A stretch of 36,444 nucleotides of DNA, taken from positions 1-36,444 of IMG/VR virus record IMGVR_UViG_3300044641_002664. One strand, given 5' to 3'. Within the stretch, counting starts at the first letter, position 1. Each line of letters starts with the position of its first letter. The DNA comes from a virus. The notes beneath the pieces are model-generated. The model ran no database searches, had not been told where the DNA came from, and saw nothing but the letters and a program-made list of their open reading frames with translations. Positions 15,121 to 31,821 of this stretch are shown one piece after another. Made by a program: the position numbers and the translations under genes.

Positions 15121-15149
15121 ACTTTAACATTTTTTTTACAATTCGTCAA
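15121..15149 (-). promoter_or_regulatory. Candidate early promoter of the porin gene
   Basis: Minus strand TTGACG (15149-15144), 17-base spacer, TAAAGT (15126-15121). The -35 overlaps the stop codon of the GT25 gene. The -10 is a weak match, so support is moderate. Confidence 0.45.
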
Positions 15150-15952
15150 GCTTTTGGTTGAGATGGTTCTGTGATTCTCCCTAGATACGGATCATATTCC
15201 ATTAAGTCCGCAATGGTTAACTGAGCCCCAGTCTGTTCCCAAAAGTTTTTAAGTCCATCATGACTTTGACGATGAAAAATATCAACGTGTTCTGGATGAA
15301 TAGATGATCCCAATTGAATCTTGTATAAGAAGAGTGGAATGGAGTAAGTATTTCCCGAATTATAAATTAAGTCATCAGCAACAGGACGTGGTTTAACACC
15401 ATTATCCAATCGATATTTGTCTTCTCCCTTCACATGAAATTTAAGAAGCTTTTCTGCATGATGCCTGTTGATAATATAACAAGCTGTAGAAAAATCATTT
15501 ACAAATCTTTTATGAAGTTTCACATGCAAATCACCAGTACAAATAATAGCAGTTTGAACTACATCCCAATCATATGGAATTCTAGAATAAAAATCTAACC
15601 AAGTAAAATTCCAAAATCTAACCAAATCCAAATTACAATCATCTTCCATAATAACTGCATATGGACTATCAGATGTTTCCATCCAATGTTTGATTGCTTT
15701 AAGATGTGATGTCGTGCAACCAATTTCCCCAGAGGTCATCATTTCTGGATATCTACCAGTAAGAATATCACTAAGGTCATCTTGTCTACCATCATACGCA
15801 GAGATACGAGTATAGTTTTCAATTTCCCAATATTTAAATTGGTCTTCCATATATTGAGCTCTCTCTGGTTGACCATCCAGATTAAGATAATAAATTGGAC
15901 CAATTCCCCTCAGCTTATATGCTGATTTATTTTTATCTAATAATTCATTCAT
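15146..15952 (-). CDS. Glycosyltransferase, GT25/LPS-LgtB type
   Basis: 268 residues with family-25 hallmarks: IGPIYYLNLDGQPERAQYM at the N-terminus, GEIGCTTSHLKAIKHW, an acidic VIMEDDCNLD (likely DxD-like metal site) and YIINRHHAEKLL. GT25 enzymes add galactose to lipooligosaccharide. Last gene of the glycan operon, ATGA-coupled to the UDP-glucose dehydrogenase gene. Donor and acceptor not predictable from sequence. Confidence 0.9.
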   Translation of the reverse strand: MNELLDKNKSAYKLRGIGPIYYLNLDGQPERAQYMEDQFKYWEIENYTRISAYDGRQDDLSDILTGRYPEMMTSGEIGCTTSHLKAIKHWMETSDSPYAVIMEDDCNLDLVRFWNFTWLDFYSRIPYDWDVVQTAIICTGDLHVKLHKRFVNDFSTACYIINRHHAEKLLKFHVKGEDKYRLDNGVKPRPVADDLIYNSGNTYSIPLFLYKIQLGSSIHPEHVDIFHRQSHDGLKNFWEQTGAQLTIADLMEYDPYLGRITEPSQPKA

Positions 15953-17112
15953 AACCCAACCAGAATAAAATCTTCTTTAATTTCAGATTGCTCAGAGACA
16001 AAAACAACTCTATCACCATAGTATTCTAGCATTGGTTGCTGAATTTGATCAAGGATTGTTTGGTTATCACCAATATAAACTTTATATCCAGCATCTAAAA
16101 GATCGATACAAAGTTTATATTGGCGACTTTCAGTTAAGATGTCCGTTCCTTTCTTATAAGAAACATGTGGGAAGTAATAAGGAAGACCTTCATTATTAAT
16201 TGAAGCAAAATATTCAAATAAGAATTTTGAATGTTGCTCATTAAAAGCATCAGTAACCGATCCAAGATTATACTTCAATCCAACCTTTTGAGCATATGCA
16301 GCAAAAGAACGATTGTCTCTAGGTAGACATGGACCACCATATCCAAATCCATATCTCATATATTTTTTACCAACTCTACTATCAGATCCGATAGCATCTA
16401 AAACCTGTTCGATTTCGTTTTCTAGACCAGATAAAGTTAAAACTTCACCGACCATATTTGCGTAACTGATTTTAGTTGTAAGGTAACAATTAAGTGCTAG
16501 TTTTACAATCTCTGCTGCAGTAGTAGACATAAAACAAGGATTTGCTTCAATCCATTGAATTCTGCTATAAATCGTAGCAATCTTAGATCTTACATTAGGA
16601 TCTTCCCCTCCAATAAGAACCATATCAGCATATCTCAGATCATGAATAATAGATCCCTGAGCAATAAATTCTGGGTTATAAAAAACGTCTACTCCATATG
16701 GAGAAAGTTTTTCTTTAAACTTTTCACAATCTCCAGGATTTGTAGTGCATCCAACTACAAAAACTTTTCCATTTAAATCAATACCATACTCAGATGCTTT
16801 TTGAATATCTTCAACTACTTTCCAAACAGCAGTTACATCGTAAGATCCATCTGCAGCAGAAGGAGTTGCTACCAAAGTGTAGATGATATCGGATTGCTTT
16901 ACAACCTCAATATTATCAATAGTCGCTACGAAGTTTTTAGCATCATCTAAAAGATCCGCTACTTCTGGTTCGTTGGTATTGATGATTCGATTGTTTAGGG
17001 AAATAACATAATCCTCACGACAATCAGATACGATAACATCATATCCAGATTTTTCTGCAAGAAGAGCAAAGCAAATACCAAGTCTTCCTGCTCCGATAAC
17101 TCCAATCTTCAT
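15949..17112 (-). CDS. UDP-glucose/GDP-mannose dehydrogenase family
   Basis: 387 residues. Rossmann GAGRLG near residue 7 and the catalytic thiol in GYGGPCLPRDNRSF (Cys262), preceded by the central NPEFIAQGS block. Oxidises a nucleotide sugar to a uronic acid, using two NAD. Shorter than UDP-glucose dehydrogenase norms (~440) at the C-terminal domain. ATGA-coupled on both sides. The NAD synthetase encoded just upstream could support it. Substrate unknown. Confidence 0.9.
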   Translation of the reverse strand: MKIGVIGAGRLGICFALLAEKSGYDVIVSDCREDYVISLNNRIINTNEPEVADLLDDAKNFVATIDNIEVVKQSDIIYTLVATPSAADGSYDVTAVWKVVEDIQKASEYGIDLNGKVFVVGCTTNPGDCEKFKEKLSPYGVDVFYNPEFIAQGSIIHDLRYADMVLIGGEDPNVRSKIATIYSRIQWIEANPCFMSTTAAEIVKLALNCYLTTKISYANMVGEVLTLSGLENEIEQVLDAIGSDSRVGKKYMRYGFGYGGPCLPRDNRSFAAYAQKVGLKYNLGSVTDAFNEQHSKFLFEYFASINNEGLPYYFPHVSYKKGTDILTESRQYKLCIDLLDAGYKVYIGDNQTILDQIQQPMLEYYGDRVVFVSEQSEIKEDFILVGL

Positions 17113-17903
17113 AGTTTAAATGTAGGAATAGACAACATTTTATGTTTATTTTGGGTGTTAAATTTTTTATAGACTTCGATTGCTTTTAGTTGATTTTCGT
17201 TAAGAAACATTGGATCTTCACTCAATCCAGTTTCCATAACCCACTCAAGCATTTCATAAGATGTTCCAATCTGATCCTCATCAGATCTACCATCTTCCCA
17301 AAGTCCATCTGTGGGAGGAGCATCAACAATACGTTGATCTACTCCAAGATATTTTCCAAGTTCCCATACCTCAGTTTTATAAAGGTCTGCGATAGGAGCA
17401 ATATCAACTCCACCATCACCATATTTAGTATAAAATCCCACACCGTAATCTTCAACTTTATTTCCAGTACCGACAACAATACCACCAACAGATCCAGCAA
17501 TTTGATACAAAGTAACCATGCGAATGCGTGATTTTGTATTTGCATTTGCAAGTTGATTGCTTGTGTACTGAGAACTGTTAGTCCACCAATTCAAACTATG
17601 AACGAATTTATCATACACACTAGAAAGTTCTACACGAATTCTAGTAACATTAGGATATTTTGCTTCCAATGCTTTTGTATGATCATCTGAAAGTCTATCA
17701 TTATCTACATTTGAAAGTAGAGGCATAGACAAGACATATGTTGGTAGTCCAGTTTCTGCACAAAGAGTTGAGACTACAGCAGAGTCAATTCCTCCAGAAA
17801 CTCCTACAACAAGAGATTTGATGCTAGGGTTTTCTAGTACATAGTCACCCAACCATTTAACAATTCTATTTTTTAATTGTTCGTAATCTGAAATTCGATT
17901 CAT
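17109..17903 (-). CDS. nadE: NAD+ synthetase, ammonia-dependent (NadE)
   Basis: 264 residues. P-loop SGGIDSA at 36-42, then NTKSRIRM, GTGNKVEDYGVGFYTKYGDG (deamido-NAD/ATP site), PIADLYKTEVWELGKYLG and GLWEDGRSDEDQIG, all diagnostic for NadE. No glutaminase domain, so ammonia-dependent. It makes NAD from NaAD. Unusual inside a glycan operon. It may supply NAD to the four nucleotide-sugar oxidoreductases/epimerases around it or replenish host NAD during infection. Both ends ATGA-coupled. Confidence 0.9.
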   Translation of the reverse strand: MNRISDYEQLKNRIVKWLGDYVLENPSIKSLVVGVSGGIDSAVVSTLCAETGLPTYVLSMPLLSNVDNDRLSDDHTKALEAKYPNVTRIRVELSSVYDKFVHSLNWWTNSSQYTSNQLANANTKSRIRMVTLYQIAGSVGGIVVGTGNKVEDYGVGFYTKYGDGGVDIAPIADLYKTEVWELGKYLGVDQRIVDAPPTDGLWEDGRSDEDQIGTSYEMLEWVMETGLSEDPMFLNENQLKAIEVYKKFNTQNKHKMLSIPTFKL

Positions 17904-18712
17904 TGGTATTTTTTAAGATACGACTGTTGTAAATAATAATTTTTTAATTCTTCCACACTCATTGATTGGACCTTTTCCCATTCATCATTATTCTGATTCA
18001 TATGGGGATTACTGAACCATGAATTAGGACCTCTTTTATGTTCTAGATGATAGACATAATCATTAATACGTCCTACATTATACCCCAATGTAGTAAATCT
18101 GTAAAATCTTTCTTTATCTTCTGGTGCATATGCTACAAAGTTTTCATTTTCCATTCCACCTTCAATATAAACTTTACGGTTAAAGAACTGAGCCCACCCA
18201 AAATCGGAGGTGTGAGTATTTGAATTTTTATCTAAAACTGAAAAATCAAAATCGTTAGATAGAAAATCAGAGACTAGTTCATCAGTAGCAGCAACTTGCT
18301 TCTGATACATCCCTTGACCGTATGGATATACAATATCATAAGTATGATCAATAATAGAATTATATGCCTCTAGATAAGAATTGAATGGGAGAATAACATC
18401 ACAATCATAATTTACAACAACCTCAGTATTGGAAACCCATAGCATTTCATTCAGAATTCTTTGCCTATGAAAAGTTCCACCATCACTTTCTTCAAAGATA
18501 TGATCAATATCTGGAACATTTCCCAGAAATTCTGAAATCTGAGGAAGTGCTTGATTACGAAATACTGAAGTAGAATCAACCTCCTTTAAGATTATATTTG
18601 TTTCAAAATTTTCCAATAAAAAGCATAGAGATGTAATAACATTCCTAAGTCTATCATCAGATTCTATTCTGACTGGAATGATAAAAGTCGCTTTTGATAA
18701 ATCAGTTTTCAT
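17900..18712 (-). CDS. Glycosyltransferase, GT2/GT7 galactosyltransferase-like
   Basis: 270 residues. An N-terminal FIIPVRIESDDRLRNVITSL region, a YDCDVILPF metal-binding-like motif, and a C-terminal GGMENENFVAYAPEDKERFYR block like the galactosyltransferase (Glyco_transf_7C) acceptor-side motif. Probably a beta-galactosyl- or GalNAc-transferase fold. Overlaps the GT2 gene by 11 bases. Confidence 0.82.
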   Translation of the reverse strand: MKTDLSKATFIIPVRIESDDRLRNVITSLCFLLENFETNIILKEVDSTSVFRNQALPQISEFLGNVPDIDHIFEESDGGTFHRQRILNEMLWVSNTEVVVNYDCDVILPFNSYLEAYNSIIDHTYDIVYPYGQGMYQKQVAATDELVSDFLSNDFDFSVLDKNSNTHTSDFGWAQFFNRKVYIEGGMENENFVAYAPEDKERFYRFTTLGYNVGRINDYVYHLEHKRGPNSWFSNPHMNQNNDEWEKVQSMSVEELKNYYLQQSYLKKYQ

Positions 18713-19460
18713 CTGGATACTTTCTAGTTTGTATAAATTCTGAATATTTTTCTTGAATATATTTTAATTCTTTACTATTCATCATCCATCCACCTTCTGG
18801 ATGCTCTACAACACAATCATATTGAGAAGTTGCTTGACTGCTTATTCGATTATCATGATCTCTATTTGCAACTAGAATATCAGGAATAATATTTGGAAGT
18901 CCATTATTCCACCTCATTCTATGATAAAAATCGGTGTCGAGTAATAGTTTTAGATTTAAATCAAAGTTAACTTTGCAATCATTTAAAAATGAAACTACGG
19001 ATGGACTGCTCAGAAGATTTCTTCCCTCAAGAGTGTAGTCAACCCATTTTGGAACTTTTTGATCATAGAAAGAAACTCCGTCTTTAGTTCCGCAAAATCC
19101 ACTAAATGCCCATTTACAATTAGATGTTTTGTATTCCTCGGAAATAATTTCTAATGCTTTCGGTGAAACAAAAACATCATCGGAGAACATGATTTTAATT
19201 ATTTTACCAGCACAATTATCTAAAGCAACATTAATATTTTCACATGCATTAGTACCAGAATATCTAACAAAAGTAAATTCAAAATCATCAGAATATTCTT
19301 TACAAACATCCAAGATTAAATCATTTTTACTTTGATCAGAAACAACAATATCAAAATCTTGAAACGTTTGAACCTTAAGAGAATCGAGCAATTGTCTCAT
19401 CCAAATTGGTCCATTCTCTCCCCTATCATGAGATGGAATTGCAATAGAAAATTCAGTCAT
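18702..19460 (-). CDS. Glycosyltransferase family 2
   Basis: 252 residues from ATG 19460 (TAATG overlap with the upstream gene; an in-frame start at 19475 would overlap it further). GT-A features: FSIAIPSHDRG, QTFQDFDIVVSDQSKND, IIKIMFSDDVFVS (DxD-like SDDVF). Adds a sugar from a nucleotide donor with inversion. Sits mid-operon. Confidence 0.86.
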   Translation of the reverse strand: MTEFSIAIPSHDRGENGPIWMRQLLDSLKVQTFQDFDIVVSDQSKNDLILDVCKEYSDDFEFTFVRYSGTNACENINVALDNCAGKIIKIMFSDDVFVSPKALEIISEEYKTSNCKWAFSGFCGTKDGVSFYDQKVPKWVDYTLEGRNLLSSPSVVSFLNDCKVNFDLNLKLLLDTDFYHRMRWNNGLPNIIPDILVANRDHDNRISSQATSQYDCVVEHPEGGWMMNSKELKYIQEKYSEFIQTRKYPDEN

Positions 19461-20251
19461 TAAATTCTTTCCCAATCCTCAGGTACTAAATCAACTTCAT
19501 CAATTGTAGCAGCAGGTCCAAACCAAACTTTGGGTGCAATAATTTTTTTAGAATTAGCCAACCATGCTCCCCACCAACTATAAGTACTATTAGCAATGAT
19601 ATGATATGAGCAAAGAGTCATAAGGCACATATCAATTATATTATCATCAGATTCCGAGATCAAAAATCTATCACTCTCAAATAAAGATTGAGTCTTACAC
19701 CACTTTGGATCATCAGAAAAAATCATAACTGGAAGATTTTCTGGTAGTTTTTCCAGTGCTGCTTCGTAGTATTCAAGAGGGAGAACTGGATGATATTGTG
19801 GTTTAATTAGATGATCTGTTCTACGAATATGAAGAGAAATTGCATCAACTCCAAATGAGAACATCTCTTTACATGGTTTGAGAATATCATCTACGAAAGT
19901 AAAGTCTTCACGAATTTCATCAGCAATATGATTAAAGTATTTTGGTGATTGAAAATACCCATAAAGATTTACGTTATCTTCGCAGTTATTAAAAAGATTT
20001 TCATTAAATCTAAATGTTTCCTCTTCCACATAAGGTGCTGGAAAAAGATTAACCTCCTTTACATGAGGAAGATTAAAAGCCATGAATAACTTATGCTGAT
20101 TTTCTTCATCGTTGAATTCATCATAAGTTTTAGGACCAGGGGGAATACACCAATCAAATCCTCGATTAGCAGCAATTCCTCTAGTAGCAGCGTATTGGAA
20201 CATTTGATTTCCAAAACGACCATTCTTTCCTAAGTGATTATGTCCGATCAT
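19460..20251 (-). CDS. GT11-type alpha-1,2-fucosyltransferase-like (copy 1)
   Basis: 263 residues with GT11 motifs: GRFGNQMFQYAATRGIAA, ISLHIRRTDH (HxRR donor motif), MIFSDDPKWCK and IIANSTYSWWGAWLANS. Closely resembles the GT11 gene at 27621, so paralogous. GT11 enzymes use GDP-L-fucose or a sugar of like stereochemistry. ATGA-coupled to the previous gene. Confidence 0.9.
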   Translation of the reverse strand: MIGHNHLGKNGRFGNQMFQYAATRGIAANRGFDWCIPPGPKTYDEFNDEENQHKLFMAFNLPHVKEVNLFPAPYVEEETFRFNENLFNNCEDNVNLYGYFQSPKYFNHIADEIREDFTFVDDILKPCKEMFSFGVDAISLHIRRTDHLIKPQYHPVLPLEYYEAALEKLPENLPVMIFSDDPKWCKTQSLFESDRFLISESDDNIIDMCLMTLCSYHIIANSTYSWWGAWLANSKKIIAPKVWFGPAATIDEVDLVPEDWERI

Positions 20252-20922
20252 AGTACAGTTCCTGGTGGTAAATGATAATGGAATCCAAAGGGAACAATTC
20301 CCTGAGTTTCTGGAAGTGGTTTTTCGTGAGAAAATTTAGCGGCAACTTCCACTGGGGCAAACTTACACCCCAATGCTTCGTAGATATGGCGATTGTGAAC
20401 GCAGATATTTCCATCCTCTCCAGTATTACCATATCCAAAATGCTTATAAAAGTCTCCCCAATTTACATCAAAGTGAATATAAGCTCTCTTGGGTACATCT
20501 AAAAGTTTTTTACTTCTAAAAGAGAATCCCCCATTTCCAACTCTATGAGGTTTTCCCCAAGGATCCAGATAAGAATGAGGAACTTGCTCCCAAGGAGCAC
20601 CAATATAATCATAATTAAAGAACTCATTATCCCATTTATCTGGATTAATTACAAACCCATCTGGTTGAACAAGAAGACAATAATCAGTATCAATATGTTT
20701 GCTCAGGTTGTAAATGCAATAATAATTGTAATCATGAATTGACTTAATCTCATAGCATTTAGAAAACTCAATTCCCTCGGGAAGATTACCTGGATCTTCG
20801 TGAGTAATCAACTTTACTGCACCAAAATTAATTCCCTTCATACTATGCTGTAGAGCAAAGAGTGCTCCAGGAATATTATTTGAAGATATGCAGAATAAAG
20901 TTACATTAGGTAGATTGATCAT
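20248..20922 (-). CDS. DUF5672-like glycosyltransferase
   Basis: 224 residues from ATG 20922 (GAGG 11 bases upstream; longer starts are possible). Shows TDYCLLVQPDGFVINP, YDYIGAPWEQVP and RVGNGGFSFRSKKLL, the pattern of DUF5672 proteins common in glycan clusters. Acts on an unknown acceptor. Soluble. Coupled at both ends. Confidence 0.84.
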   Translation of the reverse strand: MINLPNVTLFCISSNNIPGALFALQHSMKGINFGAVKLITHEDPGNLPEGIEFSKCYEIKSIHDYNYYCIYNLSKHIDTDYCLLVQPDGFVINPDKWDNEFFNYDYIGAPWEQVPHSYLDPWGKPHRVGNGGFSFRSKKLLDVPKRAYIHFDVNWGDFYKHFGYGNTGEDGNICVHNRHIYEALGCKFAPVEVAAKFSHEKPLPETQGIVPFGFHYHLPPGTVL

Positions 20923-21763
20923 TAGTTTCATCACCTCGCTTGATATACACAATAATATTACTACTATACCACTCTTCTACCTTATTTGTATCATCAACTA
21001 AAAAGTTTTCTGGAAGAGAATCAATAGTCTTTACATGATGCTCAAATCTTTCTTGAGTGTCTGGATTACGAACAATGTATGAAAAATTTGATTTAGATAC
21101 AAACTTATCAAAGTAATCTAATTGAGTTTCAAGATTACACTCTGAAAGAGAATTTACAGCAATAACTAAATCAAAATCTTTTTTCTTTATTGAAGAAAGT
21201 TTATCGCATGGAACGAAATTGACTTTATCTTTTAAATGCTCGAAATTTGAAATATACTTTTGAGCAAGTTTACAAGCCTCAGGTAAATCTATTAGAGTAT
21301 AAGACTCAAATTCAATTAGATTAGATAATAGTAAACAAAGTCCACCATACCCACCACCAATCTCAATAATATTTTTTAAAGAAAGAGGTTGCGATTGTTG
21401 TTCAAGAAAACAAACAATATCAATAGCGTTAAATGCAAACTTAAGAGTACTTGGAGAAATTAAACCAATTTCACTCTCATCGTATAAGTCTGGATTACCA
21501 ATCTTATCATTCTCTTTAAACTTTTCAAGATTGCTGTAAAACAAATTTTTCTTTAAATGAGAATTAATTTTCTGAACATAATAATCAGAAAAAAGTTTTG
21601 GAGCACCTTCTAAAATTGTTCTGTATTTTTCATTCTTCCTGAAGTTAGAAAATTCATTATCATATTCCACTGCTTCAAGACATGCAGAAGTATAATCAGA
21701 AAGAGTTTCATTTTCTGCGGCAATCCATCCGTAGAAATTTTTCTTTTTATTAATCGTTTTCAT
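20906..21763 (-). CDS. Putative sugar O-methyltransferase
   Basis: 285 residues from ATG 21763 (the frame's earlier codon is TTG). NIIEIGGGYGGLCLLLSNL is a SAM-binding motif I followed by a SYTLIDLPEACKLAQKYI helix, as in the 'putative sugar O-methyltransferase' group. It has a helical N-terminal cap. Would methylate a sugar hydroxyl in the glycan. Confidence 0.82.
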   Translation of the reverse strand: MKTINKKKNFYGWIAAENETLSDYTSACLEAVEYDNEFSNFRKNEKYRTILEGAPKLFSDYYVQKINSHLKKNLFYSNLEKFKENDKIGNPDLYDESEIGLISPSTLKFAFNAIDIVCFLEQQSQPLSLKNIIEIGGGYGGLCLLLSNLIEFESYTLIDLPEACKLAQKYISNFEHLKDKVNFVPCDKLSSIKKKDFDLVIAVNSLSECNLETQLDYFDKFVSKSNFSYIVRNPDTQERFEHHVKTIDSLPENFLVDDTNKVEEWYSSNIIVYIKRGDETNDQST

Positions 21764-22733
21764 ATTTTGTAATGATACCCGAAAGTCCAAAGTTTTGTAC
21801 GCCCTTATAATTCTCGTATTCTTCCCAACACTGAGCAGCAGTCTTTACTGTTCCGTTTTTATCCATGTAATTCCAATCCATAACGATGGAATCTGCAGGT
21901 CTCCAAAATCCATCAGAGATGTTCCAATCAAACCAATACATTGGTGCGATTACTTTCTTAACTTCTGTAGATAACCAAACAGGCCAGAAAGAAAATGTAG
22001 ATGCAGACATGATAACATATTTTGCAGTATTCAAAATAGTGTAATCAATAGAAAGAGGGCCTCCACCCATCTGATACCATCCAATTTTATAATCTGGACC
22101 CCCTGGTTCATCAGAAACTGCTGCACCAACAACTTCAGCGTTTGGAATATGTCTTCTAGCTAGATTTGGATCATCAGTCACAACAACAAACTTAATATCA
22201 GGATTTTCTTCTTGCATTGCTTTCATCGCCATCTGATAATACTCGGGAGGCAAGAAAGAATGTCCAGTAGAATAATCTCCACCCCTAAAGTGAACTACAC
22301 AAATATTATCTTGAGAATAATCTCTAATAATTTTATCTTCATCAAGTTTACACCATTCTCTAATATCATCACGACGATCTTCAATAAAGATCATGTTTTG
22401 AAATGTTCCATCAACTTTTGTGTTATCTGGGAGAAAAAACAACATTGGGTCAACAGGATTATAATCATGACCACTTTTTGGATGTCGATACTGACATTCT
22501 TTATACCAGTATTCGATTCCTTGCGGAAGAGAATCAGGTGGTCCTCCATCAGGACCAGACCCACCAATTACTTCATTACCCCAGAAAAAAGGCATCCAAC
22601 CAGCACCTTTCCAAAGGTGCTTTCCCATAATACCATAATCATATCCTAACTTTTCTGCGATGATTCTAACCACAACAGCGCCCCAGATCTGGTTTCCAAT
22701 TCCAGATCCAAGATACATTTCATTAACTAGCAT
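21750..22733 (-). CDS. Divergent GT11-like glycosyltransferase
   Basis: 327 residues. GSGIGNQIWGAVVVRIIAEK matches the GT11 start in altered form, VVHFRGGDYSTGH replaces HxRR, FVVVTDDPNLARRHIPNA and VIMSASTFSFWPVWLS follow. A distant third member of the GT11 set, probably with altered donor use. N-terminal region around 60-90 is Gly/Pro-rich. Confidence 0.78.
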   Translation of the reverse strand: MLVNEMYLGSGIGNQIWGAVVVRIIAEKLGYDYGIMGKHLWKGAGWMPFFWGNEVIGGSGPDGGPPDSLPQGIEYWYKECQYRHPKSGHDYNPVDPMLFFLPDNTKVDGTFQNMIFIEDRRDDIREWCKLDEDKIIRDYSQDNICVVHFRGGDYSTGHSFLPPEYYQMAMKAMQEENPDIKFVVVTDDPNLARRHIPNAEVVGAAVSDEPGGPDYKIGWYQMGGGPLSIDYTILNTAKYVIMSASTFSFWPVWLSTEVKKVIAPMYWFDWNISDGFWRPADSIVMDWNYMDKNGTVKTAAQCWEEYENYKGVQNFGLSGIITKYEND

Positions 22734-23674
22734 GAAATCTCCTTAATAGCTTTACTTACAATGTTATCATAGAAATATGGTAGGGTCAATGTGGTAAAAT
22801 CTATTTGTTTTACCTCATTATAAAGATGTTCATTTTGAACTAAAAGTTCTTCAGTAACATCTTCATAGTTGTCTACAAAAAGAACAGGATAATTCTTATA
22901 CAGTTCCTCAAGATAAGGATGTCTCTTCATCACTGGAACTCTTTTGAGGTATAACACTTCCCAATTTCGGTGACAGTCTAAAGCGTTACCGATAGGACAA
23001 ATCATAAATTTGTGATTTTTGATTTTCTTCAAAAACTCTTCATACCCAACACGTTCTTTATCTACCAATACCCAATACTTATCTTCAAAGATTTCATTAA
23101 TACCAGATCTCTCTTTTGGATTTGTATGAGTGCTATGATTTATGTATAAGAGATTGGTTGGAGTGATATCAGAATCTAACATCACTTTATTCAGAATCTC
23201 ATTTCTATTATCTCCAGGATGCATTTGCCTTTGTAATCCATATGGTGCTGGAATAACTTTACCACCCCAAGAAGCAGCGTTTACAGCAGAAATACAAAGG
23301 ACATTTTCTGGGATAGCATCAAAGATATATTGATCAATTGGGGTATCTTCAAGATTAGTAAAGATGATAAAGTTTATATCTTTAAAGTTAGAACACAATT
23401 TTAAAAGATCGCTTCTATCCATTAAAGACCAAACATAATCTTTATCTTCTGGTTTTACTTCTTCAATATCTCTCTTATACAGTCTGATATTATCAATAAA
23501 CAAAGTCATATAGTTTCTTTGTTTCTTTAGTTCAAAAACTTTAGAAACAAATTCAACATTTGTTAAATTAGCATCTTTCATAAAAGAGGTAAAAATATTA
23601 CCCCATTGTCCAGATTGATCACCGAAAGAGTAATCGCAAAGTTTAGATAATGCTACGCCTTCAATCAATTCCAT
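22727..23674 (-). CDS. Putative glycosyltransferase, exostosin-like
   Basis: 315 residues. The C-terminal half contains FMICPIGNALDCHRNWEVL and KRVPVMKRHPYLEELYKNYP, the donor-binding type block of exostosin/GT47-like enzymes. N-terminal half is diverged. Overlaps the GT17 gene by 10 bases. Assignment to a family is tentative, the glycosyltransferase role less so. Confidence 0.68.
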   Translation of the reverse strand: MELIEGVALSKLCDYSFGDQSGQWGNIFTSFMKDANLTNVEFVSKVFELKKQRNYMTLFIDNIRLYKRDIEEVKPEDKDYVWSLMDRSDLLKLCSNFKDINFIIFTNLEDTPIDQYIFDAIPENVLCISAVNAASWGGKVIPAPYGLQRQMHPGDNRNEILNKVMLDSDITPTNLLYINHSTHTNPKERSGINEIFEDKYWVLVDKERVGYEEFLKKIKNHKFMICPIGNALDCHRNWEVLYLKRVPVMKRHPYLEELYKNYPVLFVDNYEDVTEELLVQNEHLYNEVKQIDFTTLTLPYFYDNIVSKAIKEISC

Positions 23675-24525
23675 GGTTTAATGTACTGAGTAAACTTATC
23701 TTGATTATTCAAAATGTATTCTGGGAAAGAATCATCGATAGGAACTGTAGGATAAACATTTCCGCGATTGAGAGGATCTAATCCGTTTTCAATTTTTTCT
23801 TCTGCATTATCAATTACATCTGGTGTATTGTGATGGCAGTCTGCAGACGCTGCTAACTTTTGTTTGAATTTATCAGCATCACCAAAATAACTCCAATGCC
23901 AACCAGCAGACTCGATTAAATGAGATTCACTTAAACTCTGTCTCAGTTTATCAACACTAATCTCCTTAAGAGTTTTCCAAGAACAAATTCTAGATCCTGC
24001 CCAATTTTCTTGATAAAGAATGTTGAGTTTATAATAAAATGATCTTTGAAGACATGCATAATGATTTGAAGCATCGAACCAATCCACATTCTTAAGAATT
24101 AATGGATTAACAATTTCATCAGCATCACTGGTAATAACAATATCCTCATCAGAAACTCCTGCCTTTTCTAAAGAAAACGCTGTACAATTTCTAGCGTAGA
24201 TATCTCTTTGATACCTAACAGGAATATCAATAAATCTCTGCCCGCAGTTATTATCAATATCCCCATAGGCAGTATGATATTTTTTCTTCTCTACATAATC
24301 CGAGAAGTCATTAGGAATTTCTTCCGTAATATCATGAATCACTTTATCATTAAACTTTGAAAACTGATCTTTATTTTCCAGATAAAGTAATGGCTTTTCA
24401 TGTCCACTAATTGTATATGGACATTCAGTGATTACAAAATAGTCTACAACATCATAAAGTAGATTAAATCTAATTTCTAAAAGTTCCAACTCATTAAAGA
24501 ATCGAAACGAATCAAAAATTTTCAT
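23665..24525 (-). CDS. Glycosyltransferase family 17 (MGAT3-like)
   Basis: 286 residues. Starts KIFDSFRFFNELELLEIRFN and continues YFVITECPYTISG, typical GT17; VITSDADEIVNP supplies a DxD. GT17 enzymes make beta-1,4-GlcNAc linkages in eukaryotic N-glycans and occur in giant and other phages. C-terminal HWSYFGDADKFKQKLAA block is also typical. Mid-operon, one base from its neighbour. Confidence 0.9.
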   Translation of the reverse strand: MKIFDSFRFFNELELLEIRFNLLYDVVDYFVITECPYTISGHEKPLLYLENKDQFSKFNDKVIHDITEEIPNDFSDYVEKKKYHTAYGDIDNNCGQRFIDIPVRYQRDIYARNCTAFSLEKAGVSDEDIVITSDADEIVNPLILKNVDWFDASNHYACLQRSFYYKLNILYQENWAGSRICSWKTLKEISVDKLRQSLSESHLIESAGWHWSYFGDADKFKQKLAASADCHHNTPDVIDNAEEKIENGLDPLNRGNVYPTVPIDDSFPEYILNNQDKFTQYIKPWN

Positions 24526-24526
24526 A

Positions 24527-25198
24527 TCAGTTCTTAGTAATAATGATTAGTCCGTTATTTTCTTCAGTCTCATATTCAATTTCCCATTCGGGATTTTCTT
24601 CCAAGAATTCATCAATTGCTAGTCTAATTCCACCTGATCCATCAAGAGTATCTCTTTGTGGATGGTTTGGATCCATGGATGGATAACCTTCACCACGCTC
24701 ACCAAATGTATAGGTATCGTGAAAAGCAATATACTTTCTAACTTTACCAGCATGAAGTTCTAGTTCTTTTTTAAGTTGATCGTAGCAGTGCCACGTATCA
24801 ATGAAAAGCATATCAGTTTCTTCAATTTCTACTGTAAGAACATCGGCACCAATATATTCACAATTCACACCCAATTCTTGTGCTTGATGAAAGACTTTAA
24901 TTAGAGCGTTAACTTCTCTAGCGAGGTGTGGTTCTGGATTTTCATATTGATAATCATAAGAGACAAATTTTTTAGGATTAGCATATAAAAATGCAGATGT
25001 ACTATTTCCAGATCTTGCCCCCATTTCGGTTACATGATCACACTTCTTAGCGTATTCATACAAAACAGGAAGATGCATGTAAATATCAGATACTTCACAT
25101 GCACATGCATCTTCATAGATGTCTTGAATACTAAATGGTTTAGCGACTTTAGCAGGTCTATTCTTTGGTTGATAGACAAGAACTTTTGAATTTCTCAT
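24527..25198 (-). CDS. Class I SAM methyltransferase-like protein A
   Basis: 223 residues. VTEMGARSGNSTSAFLYANP is a SAM motif, with CEYIGADVLTVEIEETDMLF and FHDTYTFGERGEG (CmcI/Methyltransf_24-like). N-terminus has a basic leader. Glycan O-methylation is inferred from context. Sits 13 bases after its neighbour, with a weak ribosome-binding site. Confidence 0.78.
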   Translation of the reverse strand: MRNSKVLVYQPKNRPAKVAKPFSIQDIYEDACACEVSDIYMHLPVLYEYAKKCDHVTEMGARSGNSTSAFLYANPKKFVSYDYQYENPEPHLAREVNALIKVFHQAQELGVNCEYIGADVLTVEIEETDMLFIDTWHCYDQLKKELELHAGKVRKYIAFHDTYTFGERGEGYPSMDPNHPQRDTLDGSGGIRLAIDEFLEENPEWEIEYETEENNGLIIITKN

Positions 25199-25211
25199 AA
25201 TTTTAATTAAT

Positions 25212-25889
25212 TTAATTTAAGGTTTCCGATGAAATTGGTTTCCAATGAGATGAATTTCCAATGTATGTGATCTTTCTTTCAAAAGGACTTTCTTCCATAA
25301 TAACGTATTTTGGTTGATTATCATTCACAAAATTTTGTACAGATTTACTCACAAGCCCATTATCACAATCATCAATTAATATATTATCAATTCCCAGTCT
25401 AGCACAATTTTTTAAATCTGAATATGCACATTCGTAATCGTGCCCACCATCAACCCAAGCAAGATCAAATTTAATTTGTTCTGGATTCTCAAAATTACTT
25501 AAAGTCTCTACAGAATTTCCAGGAAAGAAAGTAATAAATTCTTCACCAAAATACTTGTGAATTTCATCAACGCAAAGTTGACTTTCTTCATTTATGCCGA
25601 ATGTCCAAATTTTAACATCTGGAATTAACTTTTTCATAAAATATGAATAATATCCTTTATGAGTTCCAACCTCTAAAACATTTTTAGGTTTGATTTGATC
25701 CACATATTTTTTATGAAAATCCAATTGTTCCACTAATCCATTACAACCCAACCAATTAAATAAAGCACCCTCGTCATCTAAAAACATTACATAAAGTTTA
25801 TTCAAGAAATCATAATCATATTCTTTTAATTCTTCCCTTGATAAAAATTCATCCCTATCCGTCGTTAATCCTTTGATTGGTTCTTGCAT
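25212..25889 (-). CDS. Class I SAM methyltransferase-like protein B
   Basis: 225 residues. KNVLEVGTHKGYYSYFMKKL motif, then KIWTFGINEESQLCVDEI, FDLAWVDGGHDYECAYSDL and NILIDDCDNGLVSKSV. A Methyltransf_24-type fold, also found in glycan clusters. Its ATG overlaps the epimerase stop (TGATG). Confidence 0.8.
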   Translation of the reverse strand: MQEPIKGLTTDRDEFLSREELKEYDYDFLNKLYVMFLDDEGALFNWLGCNGLVEQLDFHKKYVDQIKPKNVLEVGTHKGYYSYFMKKLIPDVKIWTFGINEESQLCVDEIHKYFGEEFITFFPGNSVETLSNFENPEQIKFDLAWVDGGHDYECAYSDLKNCARLGIDNILIDDCDNGLVSKSVQNFVNDNQPKYVIMEESPFERKITYIGNSSHWKPISSETLN

Positions 25890-26881
25890 CAGTCTTTCCA
25901 GTATTCGTAAATATTTTTAGTAACTTCATAATCCATATCTTTAACTTTTCTATTTGGTTGCTTCATAGCCCAAACAAAAACATCTTCAATGAGATCTTCA
26001 AGGTTTGTGTTATCCACAAATTCTAATATAGTCTTTGCTTTTGTATGATCACAATAAGCGTGTTTTACTTCATGCCTAGCTTCCCCATGCTCGATAGGAA
26101 CATCATATCCATATTTTCGCCCAATCTTTTGAACTGTTTGAGCAACTTCATTAAGTGAAAAATACTTATCAGCACCAATATTAAAAATTTCACCATCGTA
26201 CTCTGTTAGAAGTTTATCGAATGGTTCCATATAATATTTGATATCTGAAAAAGCTCTTGTCTGCTCACCATCACCATACACAAGAATAGGAATTCCATTT
26301 AGAGTTTTTCTAATAAAAATTCCAATTACGTTTCTATAACGATCCCAAATATTTTGGTACTTACCCAAAACGTTGTGTGGACGAACGATATTATACCTTA
26401 ACCCAAATTGCTTACGAGCTAATTCAAGATCAACCTCTACGGCATACTTTGCAACGCCATAAGGATCGATAGGTTGTGGTCTCTTATCTTCAGTAAAAGG
26501 AGGTTCCTGAGCACCATAAACAGCCATGCTTGATGTAAAAATCATCTTAGCATCGTGTTTAATGCACTCATTAATCAAATTTGCAGAGCAAATAAGATTG
26601 TTCCTATAGTTAAAATTCCTAATAAAAGGAGAAAGTCCTTCGGCAGCATAAGCAGCAAAATGTACTACTACATCTGGTTTATGTTCATCAAATAAATCTA
26701 TAAGTTTTTTTCTTTTCTCTAGATTCAATTTAGCAAAAGTAAAGTGTTCATCTTTAGGAAGAAACGCTTTATATCCCCCAGAAAGATCATCAATACCAAT
26801 TACATCATGACCATTCTTAAGAAGATGCCTAGTATAATTGGACCCAAGAAGTCCAGCACATCCAGTTACAAAAATCTTCAT
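25889..26881 (-). CDS. UDP-glucose 4-epimerase-like SDR
   Basis: 330 residues. Rossmann GCAGLLGSNY, FTSSMAVYGA, and YGVAKYAVE with the YxxxK catalytic pair; SDIKYYMEPFDKLL and FNIGADKYFSLNEV fit GalE-like extended SDRs. Interconverts nucleotide sugars (for example UDP-Glc/UDP-Gal). Coupled ATGA upstream. Confidence 0.9.
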   Translation of the reverse strand: MKIFVTGCAGLLGSNYTRHLLKNGHDVIGIDDLSGGYKAFLPKDEHFTFAKLNLEKRKKLIDLFDEHKPDVVVHFAAYAAEGLSPFIRNFNYRNNLICSANLINECIKHDAKMIFTSSMAVYGAQEPPFTEDKRPQPIDPYGVAKYAVEVDLELARKQFGLRYNIVRPHNVLGKYQNIWDRYRNVIGIFIRKTLNGIPILVYGDGEQTRAFSDIKYYMEPFDKLLTEYDGEIFNIGADKYFSLNEVAQTVQKIGRKYGYDVPIEHGEARHEVKHAYCDHTKAKTILEFVDNTNLEDLIEDVFVWAMKQPNRKVKDMDYEVTKNIYEYWKD

Positions 26882-27624
26882 ACAGTAATTACCATTTCAT
26901 TTAAACAATTGGGATCAATTTCCTCGATATAATATGGAGAAGATCTATTAAAATATATATTCGTTAAGAAGTTACGCATCTCAAAAACTTCTTCCCAATC
27001 AATATTTTTTTTATATTCTGGAATATAAGATACGTCTTTAATTTGTACGAAGGTCATACCATAACTTTCTTTAAAATGCCTTACTGCAATATGGTCATCT
27101 TCATATTCCCCATCCAACTCCTTCAATCCAAAGAAATCCATAACTGCATGATTAACAGTTTTAGTCTCTCTTCCATCATATATTTCGCAAATACCATCCT
27201 CCCATTCCGTATCATGAAAAACAAAAAATCCATTTGGTTTAATATAATCTGTCCAAAAATAAAGTTCGGCAAGGACTTGTTCTCTAACGTGAAGAGTATC
27301 TACAAATACTAAATCTACTAAACCTTCACCCCACATTTTTCCAAGAGTAACGCTATCAGCAGCAATTTTGTGGTAATTAGAAGTTCTATCGTACCATTCA
27401 TCAAGCACATTGAATGTAATATCACACCCAAAGATATGGGTGTTTTTTTCTTCCGCACGATAAGAGAGAATTGCAGAAGAAACTCCGTGTCTAACACCCA
27501 GATCAACGCAAATTAAATTATCACATGGTTCTATCAAAGAAAATAATCTTAGACCATTGACCCCCAGATCACAGTATGGATTGGTTAAAGCATGTATTAC
27601 ATGTTCTCTTTCTGTTATTTTCAT
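26878..27624 (-). CDS. Class I SAM methyltransferase-like protein C
   Basis: 248 residues from ATG 27624, which has GGGAG five bases upstream and overlaps the GT11 stop (ATGA), preferred over codon 27636. LICVDLGVRHGVSSAILSYR, IFGCDITFNVLDEWY, VDLVFVDTLHVREQVL and FFVFHDTEWEDG fit a Methyltransf_24-type enzyme. Substrate unknown. Confidence 0.78.
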   Translation of the reverse strand: MKITEREHVIHALTNPYCDLGVNGLRLFSLIEPCDNLICVDLGVRHGVSSAILSYRAEEKNTHIFGCDITFNVLDEWYDRTSNYHKIAADSVTLGKMWGEGLVDLVFVDTLHVREQVLAELYFWTDYIKPNGFFVFHDTEWEDGICEIYDGRETKTVNHAVMDFFGLKELDGEYEDDHIAVRHFKESYGMTFVQIKDVSYIPEYKKNIDWEEVFEMRNFLTNIYFNRSSPYYIEEIDPNCLNEMVITV

Positions 27625-28475
27625 AAAATCTCCCATTCACTGCAATACAAATCTTTAGTATCCTTATCAGCATATGCTGGTCCAAACCAATTCTTTGGGG
27701 TGATTACTTTTTTATTTGGATTTGATTGCAACCAAGCACCCCACCAGCTCATAGAACTGTTAGCAATAATAGCATGAGAACACAGGGACATCAAACACAA
27801 ATCTGCATATGGTGTATAGGAACCATCCGCATATTTTTGTTGAGGGACTGATTGAAAAAATCTATCTCCAGAGAAAAATTCTTGCTCTTCGACCCATTCG
27901 GGAGAATCAGAAAACACAATCACTGGTTGATTATCATCAAATACCTCTAAAGCACGTTCATAATAATCAAGTGGTTGAACAGGATGCTGATCACCACACT
28001 GAGTATAAGACCACTTAAAACCACGAGGATCCATTAAATTTGGATCTCCCCTACGAACATGAAGCATGATTGGTTCTTGCCCTTCAAACTCAGACATAAA
28101 CTCTTTACATGGTTCTATGTGCTCATCATGAAACGTGTATTCTTTTCTTATAACATTTTCAACATGTGAGAAATATTTCTCAGATTGAAAAAATCCATGA
28201 AGACTTACATTGTCTGGACATTTCTCAAACAACTCTTCATCAAAGTGAAAAAATCTTTCAGATAGATATTGGACTTCTAAAATTTGAAGATTTTCTTCTT
28301 GCACGTCCTCCATCTTGAAACACTTATGAAGACTGTAGTTTTCAATACCAGTCAGATGTGTTGGAGGAATACACCAATCATATTCATGTTTAGCAGCAAT
28401 ACCTCTTAATGCTGCATATTCAAACATTTGGTTTCCAAGTCTTCCAAGGTTTCCAATTTGATTAAACGCCAGCAT
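27621..28475 (-). CDS. GT11-type alpha-1,2-fucosyltransferase-like (copy 2)
   Basis: 284 residues. GRLGNQMFEYAALRGIAA, MLHVRRGDP, VIVFSDSPEWVEEQ and IIANSSMSWWGAWLQSN are GT11 signatures, strongly alike to the copy at 19460. GT11 enzymes transfer L-fucose from GDP-L-fucose; the GDP-mannose 3,5-epimerase gene nearby could instead provide GDP-L-galactose. Confidence 0.92.
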   Translation of the reverse strand: MLAFNQIGNLGRLGNQMFEYAALRGIAAKHEYDWCIPPTHLTGIENYSLHKCFKMEDVQEENLQILEVQYLSERFFHFDEELFEKCPDNVSLHGFFQSEKYFSHVENVIRKEYTFHDEHIEPCKEFMSEFEGQEPIMLHVRRGDPNLMDPRGFKWSYTQCGDQHPVQPLDYYERALEVFDDNQPVIVFSDSPEWVEEQEFFSGDRFFQSVPQQKYADGSYTPYADLCLMSLCSHAIIANSSMSWWGAWLQSNPNKKVITPKNWFGPAYADKDTKDLYCSEWEIL

Positions 28476-29319
28476 AGTCTTCCCTCATACTCTTAAAAAT
28501 CTGTGCAATTCCTTGCTCAATTGTAGTCTTAGGTTGCCACCATTTCATCAGGTAAGTATCTGGTTTATTTCTCTTGTCCATCTGAACACTATCCTTTTCA
28601 GCAGAAGGTTGAACCTTAACATCATGCCTTCCAATCAAATTAAATTGACCACAAATTATACTTGCGATATCAATAATTTTTGTAGAATGAAAACTTGTAA
28701 TGTGAAGATTATCCTCTGAGGTAAAGTCATTATAATTTTCCATGATTGATTCAAGTGCTTCACAGCAATCCTCAGCATAAAGAAATTCTCTTTCTTCTTG
28801 TCCATCAGTCATCATATCAATAACACCAGTTTCAAATCCCTTACGAATAAAGTCAGTGATTACATGAGCCTTCTCATGATCTTTTTCAATACCATAAACA
28901 TTCCAGAACTTAACGATAAGTCCATTCAATGACTTAGTATAAAGTTCACCAACATTCTTGAGAACTCCATATGGAGAGTAACTCATATTACTCATCTGAG
29001 ATGATGCAAAGATGAACCTCTTATTATACTTTTTAAGAAGTCCAAATGCATTGACCATCAAACGACCATTGTTATCAATGAATTGGAAAGTGTGTTGATA
29101 CTTTTTAAGATAACGAGATCCACCAACATCAAATGCAAGGAAGAACACAAAGTCTGAATCTGCAATTCTTTCTTCAAGAAGAAGATTGGGAATCAAGGTC
29201 ATATCCTCATGAGGATTATTTACGACATCAAACTCATAAACATAATGACCTTTTTCGCGCAAGTAATCTGTAAGGTAGGCACCAATCTGCCCACTGGAAC
29301 CAAGAATAGTAATTTTCAT
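28462..29319 (-). CDS. Extended SDR epimerase/reductase
   Basis: 285 residues. GSSGQIGAYLTDYLREKG Rossmann motif, a RFIFASSQMSNMSYSPYGVL segment with YxxxK. Ends AQIFKSMREDYAGV. Shorter than typical 4,6-dehydratases; could be a GDP-fucose-synthase- or dTDP-rhamnose-reductase-like step. ATGA-coupled to the gene before. Confidence 0.82.
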   Translation of the reverse strand: MKITILGSSGQIGAYLTDYLREKGHYVYEFDVVNNPHEDMTLIPNLLLEERIADSDFVFFLAFDVGGSRYLKKYQHTFQFIDNNGRLMVNAFGLLKKYNKRFIFASSQMSNMSYSPYGVLKNVGELYTKSLNGLIVKFWNVYGIEKDHEKAHVITDFIRKGFETGVIDMMTDGQEEREFLYAEDCCEALESIMENYNDFTSEDNLHITSFHSTKIIDIASIICGQFNLIGRHDVKVQPSAEKDSVQMDKRNKPDTYLMKWWQPKTTIEQGIAQIFKSMREDYAGV

Positions 29320-30392
29320 ACTGTTTGCAATAAATTATCAGTTGTTTCTTTAATTAGGATTTGGGACTCAATCCAATTATAAGTCTTACGAATTCCTTCC
29401 TCAAGAGTCTGAGAATAATCCCATCCCAGTTTTTCACGGATAAGATCATTGTTGGAATTACGTCCGCGAACTCCAAGAGGTCCATCGATATGATTCCTTT
29501 CTACAGTTTTTCCAGAAACTCTTGCTGCAGTTTCTACAAGTTGATTGATAGTAACCATTTCTTCTGATCCAATATTCACTGGTCCAATAAAATCAGAATC
29601 CATTAATCTGCGGGTTGCCTCAATGCATTCATCAATATACAAGAACGACCGAGTTTGTTTTCCATCACCCCACACATCAATAGTTCCTCCTTCTTCTGGG
29701 AGGTAGGCGACTTTGCGACAGATTGCTGCAGGTGCCTTTTCTCTTCCACCTTCCCATGTTCCTTCTGGGCCAAAGATGTTGTGATAACGAGCGACCCTAA
29801 CAGGAATCCCATAGTTACGATAGTACGCAAAATAGAGTCTTTCACTGAAGAGTTTTTCCCATCCATATTCGGAATCTGGGTTTGCTGGATATGCTGATTC
29901 TTCACGACAGTCTGGATTATCGGGATCCAATTGATTATGTTCTGGATACATGCAAGCAGATCCAGAATAGAAAATTTTAGTCTTATTTACGCTCTTAAAG
30001 TCATTTAATTGACGCTGTGCCTCAAGAACATTAAGGTTAATTTGTGACGAGTTATGCATAATATCAGCGTCGTTTTCGCCAGTAAAGACGAAACCTGCTC
30101 CACCCATATCAGCAGCAAATTGATATACCTCATCAAAGGTATCAATATATCTTGAAGGAACAAAGTTATAGAAATTTCTGTAAGGACCTTTATATTGGAG
30201 AACTCTTTCAACAAAAGTAAGATCTCTTAGGTCTCCTACAATAAATTCATGTGCTTCACTTTCTGAAAACTCAGGAAGTTTAAGATCTACACCACGAACC
30301 CAATATCCTTCGGAGCGCAGTCTTTTTACCATGTGACTTCCAATGAAACCACCAGCACCAAGTACAAGTGCTGTTTTCGTATATTGACTCAT
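29316..30392 (-). CDS. gme: GDP-mannose 3,5-epimerase-like SDR
   Basis: 358 residues from ATG 30392 (the longer frame opens with TTG). GAGGFIGSH; FAADMGGAGFVFTGEND; catalytic SGSACMYPE with Cys147; YGWEK (Tyr176/Lys180); YHNIFGPEGTWEGGREKAPA; and GPLGVRGRNSNNDLIREKLG are the blocks that identify plant GDP-mannose 3,5-epimerase. That enzyme turns GDP-D-mannose into GDP-L-galactose and GDP-L-gulose. First gene of the glycan operon, about 40 bases after a terminator, so read-through or a local promoter is needed. WcaG-type epimerases are the main alternative. Confidence 0.85.
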   Translation of the reverse strand: MSQYTKTALVLGAGGFIGSHMVKRLRSEGYWVRGVDLKLPEFSESEAHEFIVGDLRDLTFVERVLQYKGPYRNFYNFVPSRYIDTFDEVYQFAADMGGAGFVFTGENDADIMHNSSQINLNVLEAQRQLNDFKSVNKTKIFYSGSACMYPEHNQLDPDNPDCREESAYPANPDSEYGWEKLFSERLYFAYYRNYGIPVRVARYHNIFGPEGTWEGGREKAPAAICRKVAYLPEEGGTIDVWGDGKQTRSFLYIDECIEATRRLMDSDFIGPVNIGSEEMVTINQLVETAARVSGKTVERNHIDGPLGVRGRNSNNDLIREKLGWDYSQTLEEGIRKTYNWIESQILIKETTDNLLQTV

Positions 30393-30434
30393 AAAAGCAA
30401 TCAAGTAAATAATCTTCTTATTATATATTCTACT

Positions 30435-30463
30435 AAAAAAGGGAGGTTTTGTAAACCTCCCTT
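30435..30463 (-). terminator. Intrinsic terminator/attenuator before the glycan operon
   Basis: 11-bp perfect stem AAGGGAGGTTT/AAACCTCCCTT with a 3-base loop and a TTTTTT run on the minus strand. It lies 130 bases past the 77-residue gene and 43 bases before the first glycan gene. Confidence 0.9.
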
Positions 30464-30592
30464 GGGTAACTCAGGCTCGCCACCAATTCTTTGACTGGAA
30501 ATTGGAAACCAGGCGGGAGAGAGTCCCATCCGCACCACTTGCCTTTTAATGGGAAGGCAAGAAACCAAAAGGGGTCGTTTTGACTCCACCAC
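30464..30592 (-). ncRNA. Structured leader upstream of the glycan operon (wcaG-motif candidate)
   Basis: No convincing gene. The minus-strand RNA can form several helices: CTTGCCTT/AAGGCAAG (8 bp, 8-base loop), GGGA/TCCC in a CTCTC loop, CCAATT/AATTGG (11-base loop), and the terminator. The wcaG RNA motif is known from cyanophages, often before exopolysaccharide genes. Location and WcaG-like SDR first gene fit, but membership must be tested. A 63-residue ORF in the same strand ignores the structure and I reject it. Confidence 0.45.
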
Positions 30593-30826
30593 CTAGTTTG
30601 ACTGAACTAGGAAAAGTTGGGATAATTTTGCAAACTCATTAACAGAAAAGAAAGCACATAAAATTAGAACATCATAGAGTTTTAATTTGATTGCAAATGG
30701 TATTGTGAGTGCGCCACCAACAAACTTTACCAATAACCCATATTTAAAATCCCCCCATAACATGATTTGATAACCAACTATGAGAAGAATATTTCCAAGA
30801 TATCTTAAGACACTTGTTTTAGACAT
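30593..30826 (-). CDS. Multi-pass membrane protein (77 aa)
   Basis: Three hydrophobic stretches (RYLGNILLIVGYQIMLWG, YGLLVKFVGGALTIPFAI, YDVLILCAFFSVNEF) separated by short polar turns. No known family recognised. Last gene of the upstream transcript; a small CTAGTT/AACTAG hairpin lies at its stop. Confidence 0.62.
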   Translation of the reverse strand: MSKTSVLRYLGNILLIVGYQIMLWGDFKYGLLVKFVGGALTIPFAIKLKLYDVLILCAFFSVNEFAKLSQLFLVQSN

Positions 30827-30879
30827 AAGGGGTTTGCTCCCGACCAGGGCAAGTTTTAAGTCATTCCGAGACTATTTAA

Positions 30880-31128
30880 CTAATCCCAATCCTGAAGATC
30901 ATCAGGATCGACATAACAAGGAACACGATCAGGATCTAACCATTTCGCATATTCAATATCTTCCATTGCAGTAGTGCATTGTAGACCGTTATCAAAAAGA
31001 TAAATGTCATTCCAGCGTTTAGTGTATTCATTTTGCTTTTGCAAGCGATAATCGGGTTTACCGTTAATTTCAAGAATACCCGCTTCAATAAAGCGATACC
31101 CTTCACGCTCTAGAAGAATTTTAGTCAT
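30880..31128 (-). CDS. Hypothetical protein (82 aa)
   Basis: Soluble, charged and Tyr/Trp-rich (MTKILLEREGYRFIEAG ... YAKWLDPDRVPCYVDPD). ATGA overlap with the upstream gene. No recognised family. Part of a two-gene early operon. Confidence 0.62.
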   Translation of the reverse strand: MTKILLEREGYRFIEAGILEINGKPDYRLQKQNEYTKRWNDIYLFDNGLQCTTAMEDIEYAKWLDPDRVPCYVDPDDLQDWD

Positions 31129-31641: not shown

Positions 31642-31821
31642 TTATGGGGCATCATTGTTTAGTTCGGTGTGTATTCGTATGACTTCTTCAACTTCTTCGT
31701 TATGTGGAACTATTACTGCATCACCATATTCACTAGTAATCAAAAAAGATTCTCCGTTTTCTACTCTGTCCATGAGGTTATCGAAATTAGATTGAAATTC
31801 TTCTACAGTAAATTTTTCCAT
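31642..31821 (-). CDS. Phd/YefM-like antitoxin, orphan (59 aa)
   Basis: MEKFTVEEFQSNFDNLMDRVENGESFLITSEYGDAVIVP is read here in parts: a VEEFQSNFDNLMDRVENGES segment followed by a FLITSEYGDAVIVP strand pair, the Phd/YefM DNA-binding fold. The C-terminal toxin-binding tail is short and acidic. No toxin ORF lies beside it; tRNA-Pro is upstream and tRNA-Ile downstream. It could neutralise a host toxin or act as a repressor. Confidence 0.75.
   Translation of the reverse strand: MEKFTVEEFQSNFDNLMDRVENGESFLITSEYGDAVIVPHNEEVEEVIRIHTELNNDAP

Follow-up and report, generated by a model that had tools for sequence, protein, structure and literature searches.

A modular pseudoknot array containing the wcaG RNA, positioned at gene 3' ends and ahead of a terminator with an embedded promoter in a cyanophage-like genome

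The wcaG locus and its modules

The window analysed here is the whole stretch of 36,444 bases of the virus record IMGVR_UViG_3300044641_002664. It carries psbA, plastoquinol terminal oxidase (PTOX), eight tRNAs and the PhotoRC-II RNA, by which the phage is cyanophage-like, in agreement with the context supposed in an earlier note on this DNA. On the minus strand the tRNAs are followed by an 82-aa ORF, a structural module of type B, a 77-aa ORF, three modules of type A (A1, A2 and A3), a terminator, a promoter and an operon of glycan genes (Table 1). A Pfam search with seven genes of this operon gave hits for five. Its first ORF extends from a TTG codon (29316-30404), relatives use the ATG at 30392, and no Shine-Dalgarno sequence is visible, as had been remarked before. 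The tRNA cluster encloses a Phd-like antitoxin ORF (PHROG 375; 31642-31821, minus strand). The PhotoRC-II RNA (56 bits; 5963-6052, minus strand) is found 37 nt upstream of psbA (4847-5926), i.e. in a true leader position, unlike wcaG.

Table 1. Array modules, signals and flanking genes of the window, in minus-strand order
Feature	Position	Strand	Description	Basis
82-aa ORF	30880..31128	-	PHROG 481, unknown function; stop 7 nt before module B	
Module B	30847..30873	-	AGTC-TCGGAAT-GACT-TAAAACTTGCCC, then TGGTCGGG; outside Rfam model, between two upstream ORFs	scanner, covariation
77-aa ORF	30593..30826	-	PHROG 2318, unknown function; between modules B and A1	
Module A1	30592..30617	-	ACT-TTT-CCTAG-TTC-AGT-CAAA-CTAGG, then TGGTGGAG; outside Rfam model	scanner
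wcaG RNA core	30469..30569	-	A2, A3 and P2 linker hairpin	cmscan
Module A2	30538..30567	-	PKa TGG, TTT, stem CTTGCCT, PKb CCA, stem AGGCAAG, then TGGTGCGG	scanner, covariation
P2 linker hairpin	30513..30537	-	TGGTGCGGATGGG-ACTCT-CTCCCGC; joins A2 and A3	sequence; Rfam P2
Module A3	30483..30512	-	PKa CTGG, L1 TTT, stem CCAATTT, PKb CCAG, L3 TCAAA, stem GAATTGG, then TGGCG	module scanner, unbiased pseudoknot test, covariation
Intrinsic terminator	30439..30463	-	AAGGGAGGTTT-ACA-AAACCTCCCTT, then TTTT; 11-bp stem	sequence
Sigma70-like promoter	30427..30455	-	-35 TTTACA (30455-30450) inside terminator hairpin, 17-nt spacer, -10 TAGAAT (30432-30427); 10/12 matches	sequence; position conserved in relatives
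First glycan operon gene	29316..30392	-	NAD-dependent epimerase/dehydratase, PF01370	Pfam
Glycan operon	15146..30392	-	epimerases, fucosyltransferase-type GT11, methyltransferase, others; unit downstream of the promoter	ORF layout and Pfam

The earlier note had guessed at a wcaG-type RNA ahead of the glycan genes, and the covariance search (cmscan) confirmed it: Rfam family RF01761 is matched over its full length (model positions 1-98 of 98) with 101.1 bits and an E-value of 1.7e-18, where the gathering score is 42 bits. By Rfam's own test, as well as by its cyanophage or marine viral source, the core belongs to wcaG, since 2010 an orphan riboswitch candidate of cyanobacterial viruses. The description of the motif by Weinberg et al. 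(2010; PMC2864571) places it near exopolysaccharide and high-light genes, and recent cyanophage papers repeat the role of an exopolysaccharide-linked regulator of genes downstream (PMC9964418, PMC10665884, PMC9602691). The 11-bp terminator noted before is also present. The gap between it and the gene is indeed short, but measures 46 nt to the ATG, not 43.

A scanner for the modules detected four of them, each on the minus strand of the window, as compared with 0.15 per shuffled 36-kb strand. Modules A1 and B are not recognized by Rfam, and the TAG stop codon of the 77-aa ORF sits within the 3' stem of A1. The stretch previously flagged as a structured leader does fold stably (30430-30592, z = -2.1, with 3 of 200 shuffles equally stable), but its proposed extent missed the two upstream modules. 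The minimum-energy fold of the whole 453-nt array is only mildly stable (z = -1.9) and does not show the modules, because pseudoknots are not modelled. The locus is like the Rfam wcaG in that its core matches the whole model, in its cyanophage context and in the sugar genes downstream. It differs in that the Rfam match consists of three nested helices and two modules, whereas here we see a longer array with a pseudoknot in each module and extra A and B modules upstream, whose place is not a leader but the 3' end of the gene before it. The pseudoknots may already have been drawn in a figure or supplement of Weinberg et al. In the portions of the literature text on wcaG RNA that were covered, we found descriptions neither of a modular array nor of type B modules nor of a coupling to stop codons.

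Module structure and covariation in related loci

The array pattern was examined across about 190 related loci. A DNA pattern of the conserved core was matched in at least 119 viral contigs and in 3 of 84,980 prokaryote genomes; among the matches listed, 109 loci have distinct neighbourhoods. Two of the prokaryote matches are from Hymenobacter, with flanks resembling coding sequence. The third is on a contig that carries phage-type genes and shares an identical sequence around the motif with a viral contig; none of the three is usable, and host copies of wcaG were rejected. Type A modules have the organization PKa(3-4)-UUU-stem-PKb-A-rich loop-stem-UGGYG, and in type B modules a 4-bp stem encloses a yGGx loop and is followed by an AAA-rich segment and then by x'y'NNC-UGGU[C/G]G. 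The linkers between modules begin with UGGUG or UGGUCGG.

Both stems of each kind of module covary in about 110 related loci, bearing out the conserved pairing in related phages on which the earlier note had counted. In the 3' copy of type A (35 sequences) there are 73 double-change cells, as compared with 18 after shuffling and at most 7 in slid controls, and 100% of the cells are paired, a percentage that is partly by construction, since the modules were chosen by a scanner that requires pairing. The corresponding numbers of double-change cells are 55 against 19 for the 5' copy of type A, and 40 against 10.5 and 29 against 9 for type B. Because the scanner asks for pairing, an unbiased test of the pseudoknots was carried out on 65 unique cores found by the DNA pattern alone. 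At a fixed register 63 of these pair, and the remaining two are shifted by one base. The two variable pseudoknot bases pair in 63 of the 65 cores, while permutations (n=2000) give a mean of 35 and a maximum of 42.

In arrays such as B-B-A-A or B-ORF-A-A-A the modules are spaced at about 50 nt, and a single small ORF is often interposed. An independent scan with the type B pattern yielded 85 new hits, and in 71 of the 75 with enough downstream sequence A modules follow in the same direction. Some of these arrays lack the wcaG core and score 29-49 bits with Rfam (cut-off 42) or are not scored at all. At eight loci (L017, L027, L038, L041, L078, L092, L093 and L120) a third A-type module (CCTTCCGTGTGGTTG-GTTTC..GTGGCGTGCATG) follows the wcaG core, outside the Rfam model. 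Within the genome of phage S-SM2 the modules cluster in one place only (143119-143518), accompanied elsewhere by isolated low-grade matches, and the idea that modules are scattered over the whole phage genome was rejected. We also dropped the idea that the GGA of the B loops serves as a CsrA sponge; the A modules have no GGA, and the flanking bases covary as a stem. Another known RNA that can be compared by its description is the STAXI motif (Weinberg et al. 2010), a pseudoknot likewise present two or three times in tandem, but near genes of DNA-binding and DNA-handling proteins.

Genes and signals around the arrays

Analysis of the preceding genes revealed a strong coupling of modules to stop codons. 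A co-oriented ORF ends between -60 and +45 of the module start in 133 of 146 module clusters (91%, against 25% for random positions) and between -15 and +30 in 115 of them; in an independent sample the coupling is found in 103 of 123 (84%, against 25%). The registers of the stop recur at +2, +18/19 and +25 relative to the module start, which places the stop codon within the module. Upstream genes belong mostly to a few families of small ORFs (PHROG 481, PHROG 2318 and two others). On the same strand a tRNA is present no more than 1.5 kb upstream in 65 of 88 loci (random 43%), and on the opposite strand in none. A motif resembling a late promoter (CTAAATA) is located between the B modules and a small ORF of the MATKG family in L006, L074, L096 and S-SM2 (about 143200), which suggests that this ORF and its A modules could form a late transcript.

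Downstream of the array a terminator is present in 84 of 101 loci (63 of 74 in an independent sample), at a narrowly distributed distance of 16-61 nt past the last module (median 22 nt). A promoter scoring at least 9/12, with its -35 box inside the hairpin and its -10 box after the T-tract, accompanies it in 66 of these 84 relatives, as compared with 9% of shuffles, with an exact TATAAT in 55; in the independent sample it is present in 55 of 63. Sigma70 promoters occur downstream of 69% of arrays (21% in shuffled sequences). In the 110 nt upstream of the arrays they are at chance level (16% against 15% in shuffled sequences) by a score that covers sigma70 promoters and leaves late (gp55-type) ones outside, and a promoter upstream of the array was rejected. 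In about one locus in ten an ORF directly follows the array, with neither terminator nor promoter. At four loci (L045, L099, L112 and L165) the array precedes tRNA genes and the hairpin has the embedded -35 box but no T-tract. Since the T-tract is absent from several loci of this kind, the promoter seems to be more consistently kept than the terminator before tRNA genes.

The genes next after the arrays fall into more than 25 protein clusters. The commonest are epimerases and other sugar genes, with 34 of 92 in the epimerase cluster and 12 in a second cluster. In four isolates (S-CREM1, S-IOM18, S-RIM8 and S-RSM4) a tRNA lies directly behind wcaG, and in S-IOM18 and S-RIM8 an hli gene comes after that tRNA, an order that may be the reason why high-light genes were noted in the vicinity of wcaG in 2010.

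The prevalence of sugar genes, the short and narrowly distributed distance to the terminator and the high conservation of the unpaired bases agree with the riboswitch candidate proposed for the vicinity of exopolysaccharide and high-light genes (PMC2864571), i.e. with tandem modules that bind a ligand (e.g. a nucleotide sugar) and alter how far the glycan operon is read through the terminator. Pairing between the core and the terminator arms is slightly better within a locus than with permuted arms (7.38 against 7.23, with 2 of 60 permutations as high). This excess is marginal, and an antiterminator pairing between core and arms is not clearly seen. The terminator has no overlap with any module helix, and its 66 distinct arms in the 84 loci vary without a clear counterpart in the RNA. 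The downstream genes possess a promoter of their own, are very diverse and include tRNAs. The case for a riboswitch with a regulated terminator is weakened, and we regard it as unlikely, although the marginal pairing excess and the ORFs found directly behind about a tenth of the arrays leave some probability for a role in cis.

These observations also bear on the suggestion, made in the earlier note, that the RNA decides whether the 15-kb operon is read. It had overlooked the promoter overlapping the terminator, which comes close to the strong promoter between terminator and gene that it had itself named as evidence to the contrary. With a promoter in and after the terminator, enriched in relatives, the suggestion finds no support, and it is further disfavoured by an RNA tied to the preceding stop, by next genes that are diverse or tRNAs and by the lack of a clearly covarying antiterminator. 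A leader would form the 5' UTR on the transcript of the gene it regulates; here terminator and promoter intervene, and the coupling is to the upstream stop. Judged by this arrangement, the wcaG RNA is probably not a leader switch of the glycan operon.

The EAR (epsC) and HK022 put elements are intercistronic structured RNAs near exopolysaccharide genes or upstream of terminators, and in this they resemble the array, although no sequence relation between them and the array was found. The array could similarly act as a processive antiterminator (as HK022 put or Bacillus EAR/epsC), modifying RNA polymerase so that upstream transcripts pass the terminator into the glycan operon. Its intercistronic place, its structured tandem RNA, the terminator just behind it and the 15-kb operon downstream would suit such a role, which we nevertheless consider improbable: an adjacent terminator and a fresh promoter make little sense if the terminator is always defeated, and some arrays precede a tRNA or a short gene.

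The terminator-promoter unit is reminiscent of a type of cassette known from T4-like phages, PeSL (Arbiol 2010; Comeau 2014, as cited in PMC4503421), in which a stem-loop terminator and an early promoter form one unit that is placed between modular genes. The composite of the window, the only terminator with an embedded promoter there, likewise combines a terminator hairpin with an early promoter of the sigma70 type; six composites scoring at least 9 are found in the entire S-SM2 genome (190,789 nt). By comparison with that description, the composite here differs in its -35 box inside the terminator hairpin and in the pseudoknot array that precedes it. As proposed for PeSL, the modules and terminator-promoter units might serve mainly as homology for gene shuffling, and downstream genes are indeed freely exchanged behind the conserved array, with truncated arrays fused into new genes in L030 and L118. 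Homology alone, however, selects no compensatory changes in both stems of each module, and the modules of S-SM2 are in one place only, and it would surprise us greatly if recombination were their main role.

Possible roles of the array

From the position and structure of the array we infer, with moderate confidence and from sequence comparison, a phage-restricted structured RNA at the 3' end of genes or between them, which would close the upstream transcript and most likely protect or process it, and which would not be a leader of the glycan operon. The transcript coming from upstream, i.e. from the tRNA cluster and small ORFs, would end in the array and be closed by the terminator, while the glycan operon would start at its own promoter within the terminator and be insulated by the latter. 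The array would guard the phage RNA that precedes it against 3'-5' decay or determine how that RNA is processed, the tandem copies of the module would provide redundancy, and the released array RNA might have a role in trans. When the T7-like phage P-SSP7 infects its host, RNase E of the host increases, and the transcripts of the phage are thought to escape it by protection (PMC9692554), which makes selection for RNA protection plausible. Protection or processing is favoured by the position of the array, by its redundancy and by the raised RNase activity that can accompany cyanophage infection. Against a 3'-end RNA speak the conserved loops and UGGUG flanks, which exceed the need of simple protection and suggest a specific partner, the ORFs that directly follow about a tenth of the arrays, as they would a translational leader, and the imperfect promoter of the window.

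A more far-reaching proposal, which we put forward tentatively, would remove wcaG from the riboswitch classes and make it the best-conserved piece of a modular phage RNA of a new kind. In this view phage genes bear at their 3' ends two to five H-type pseudoknots in an array, which overlaps the stop codons and would serve, in cyanophage infection, as RNA armour or as a noncoding RNA excised from the tRNA cluster. If the array is truly a modular 3'-end element, screens for sugar ligands target the wrong model, and RNA decay, processing and end mapping would be the right tests; it would also be a case, from phages, of pseudoknots repeated in tandem where genes end. On the 3'-end reading, the RNA is distinct from a promoter cassette at which the sugar operon probably starts, although genomic context had led the two to be taken together.

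Some arrays are closely associated with tRNAs and other small RNAs. Two loci have an array that begins at a tRNA 3' end or within 1 nt of it, and in S-CREM1 the order is wcaG, tRNA, tRNA, manA, tRNA, abiF, tRNA. Together with the conserved loops, this is what one would expect of a noncoding RNA cut from the tRNA-cluster transcript and acting in trans on a protein or RNA of either host or phage. Many loci, however, have ORFs interposed between modules, and the variable number of modules and the lack of the wcaG core in some arrays are unusual for a fixed trans-acting RNA, which leaves this explanation rather doubtful.

The manA RNA (RF01745) is another orphan riboswitch candidate of cyanophages and occurs in the same tRNA-rich region of related phages, but it represents a separate family, with no match in the window (cmscan). 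In S-CREM1 (L213, 3359-3728) it lies exactly between two tRNAs, separated from them by gaps of about 1 nt, and in L161 (8193-8477) it follows a tRNA at a distance of 2 nt; it, too, may belong to the transcript of the tRNA cluster and not be an element of a 5' UTR. The abiF small RNA is likewise found within a few bases of cyanophage tRNA genes (L213, 3758-3794; L128, 12703-12739).
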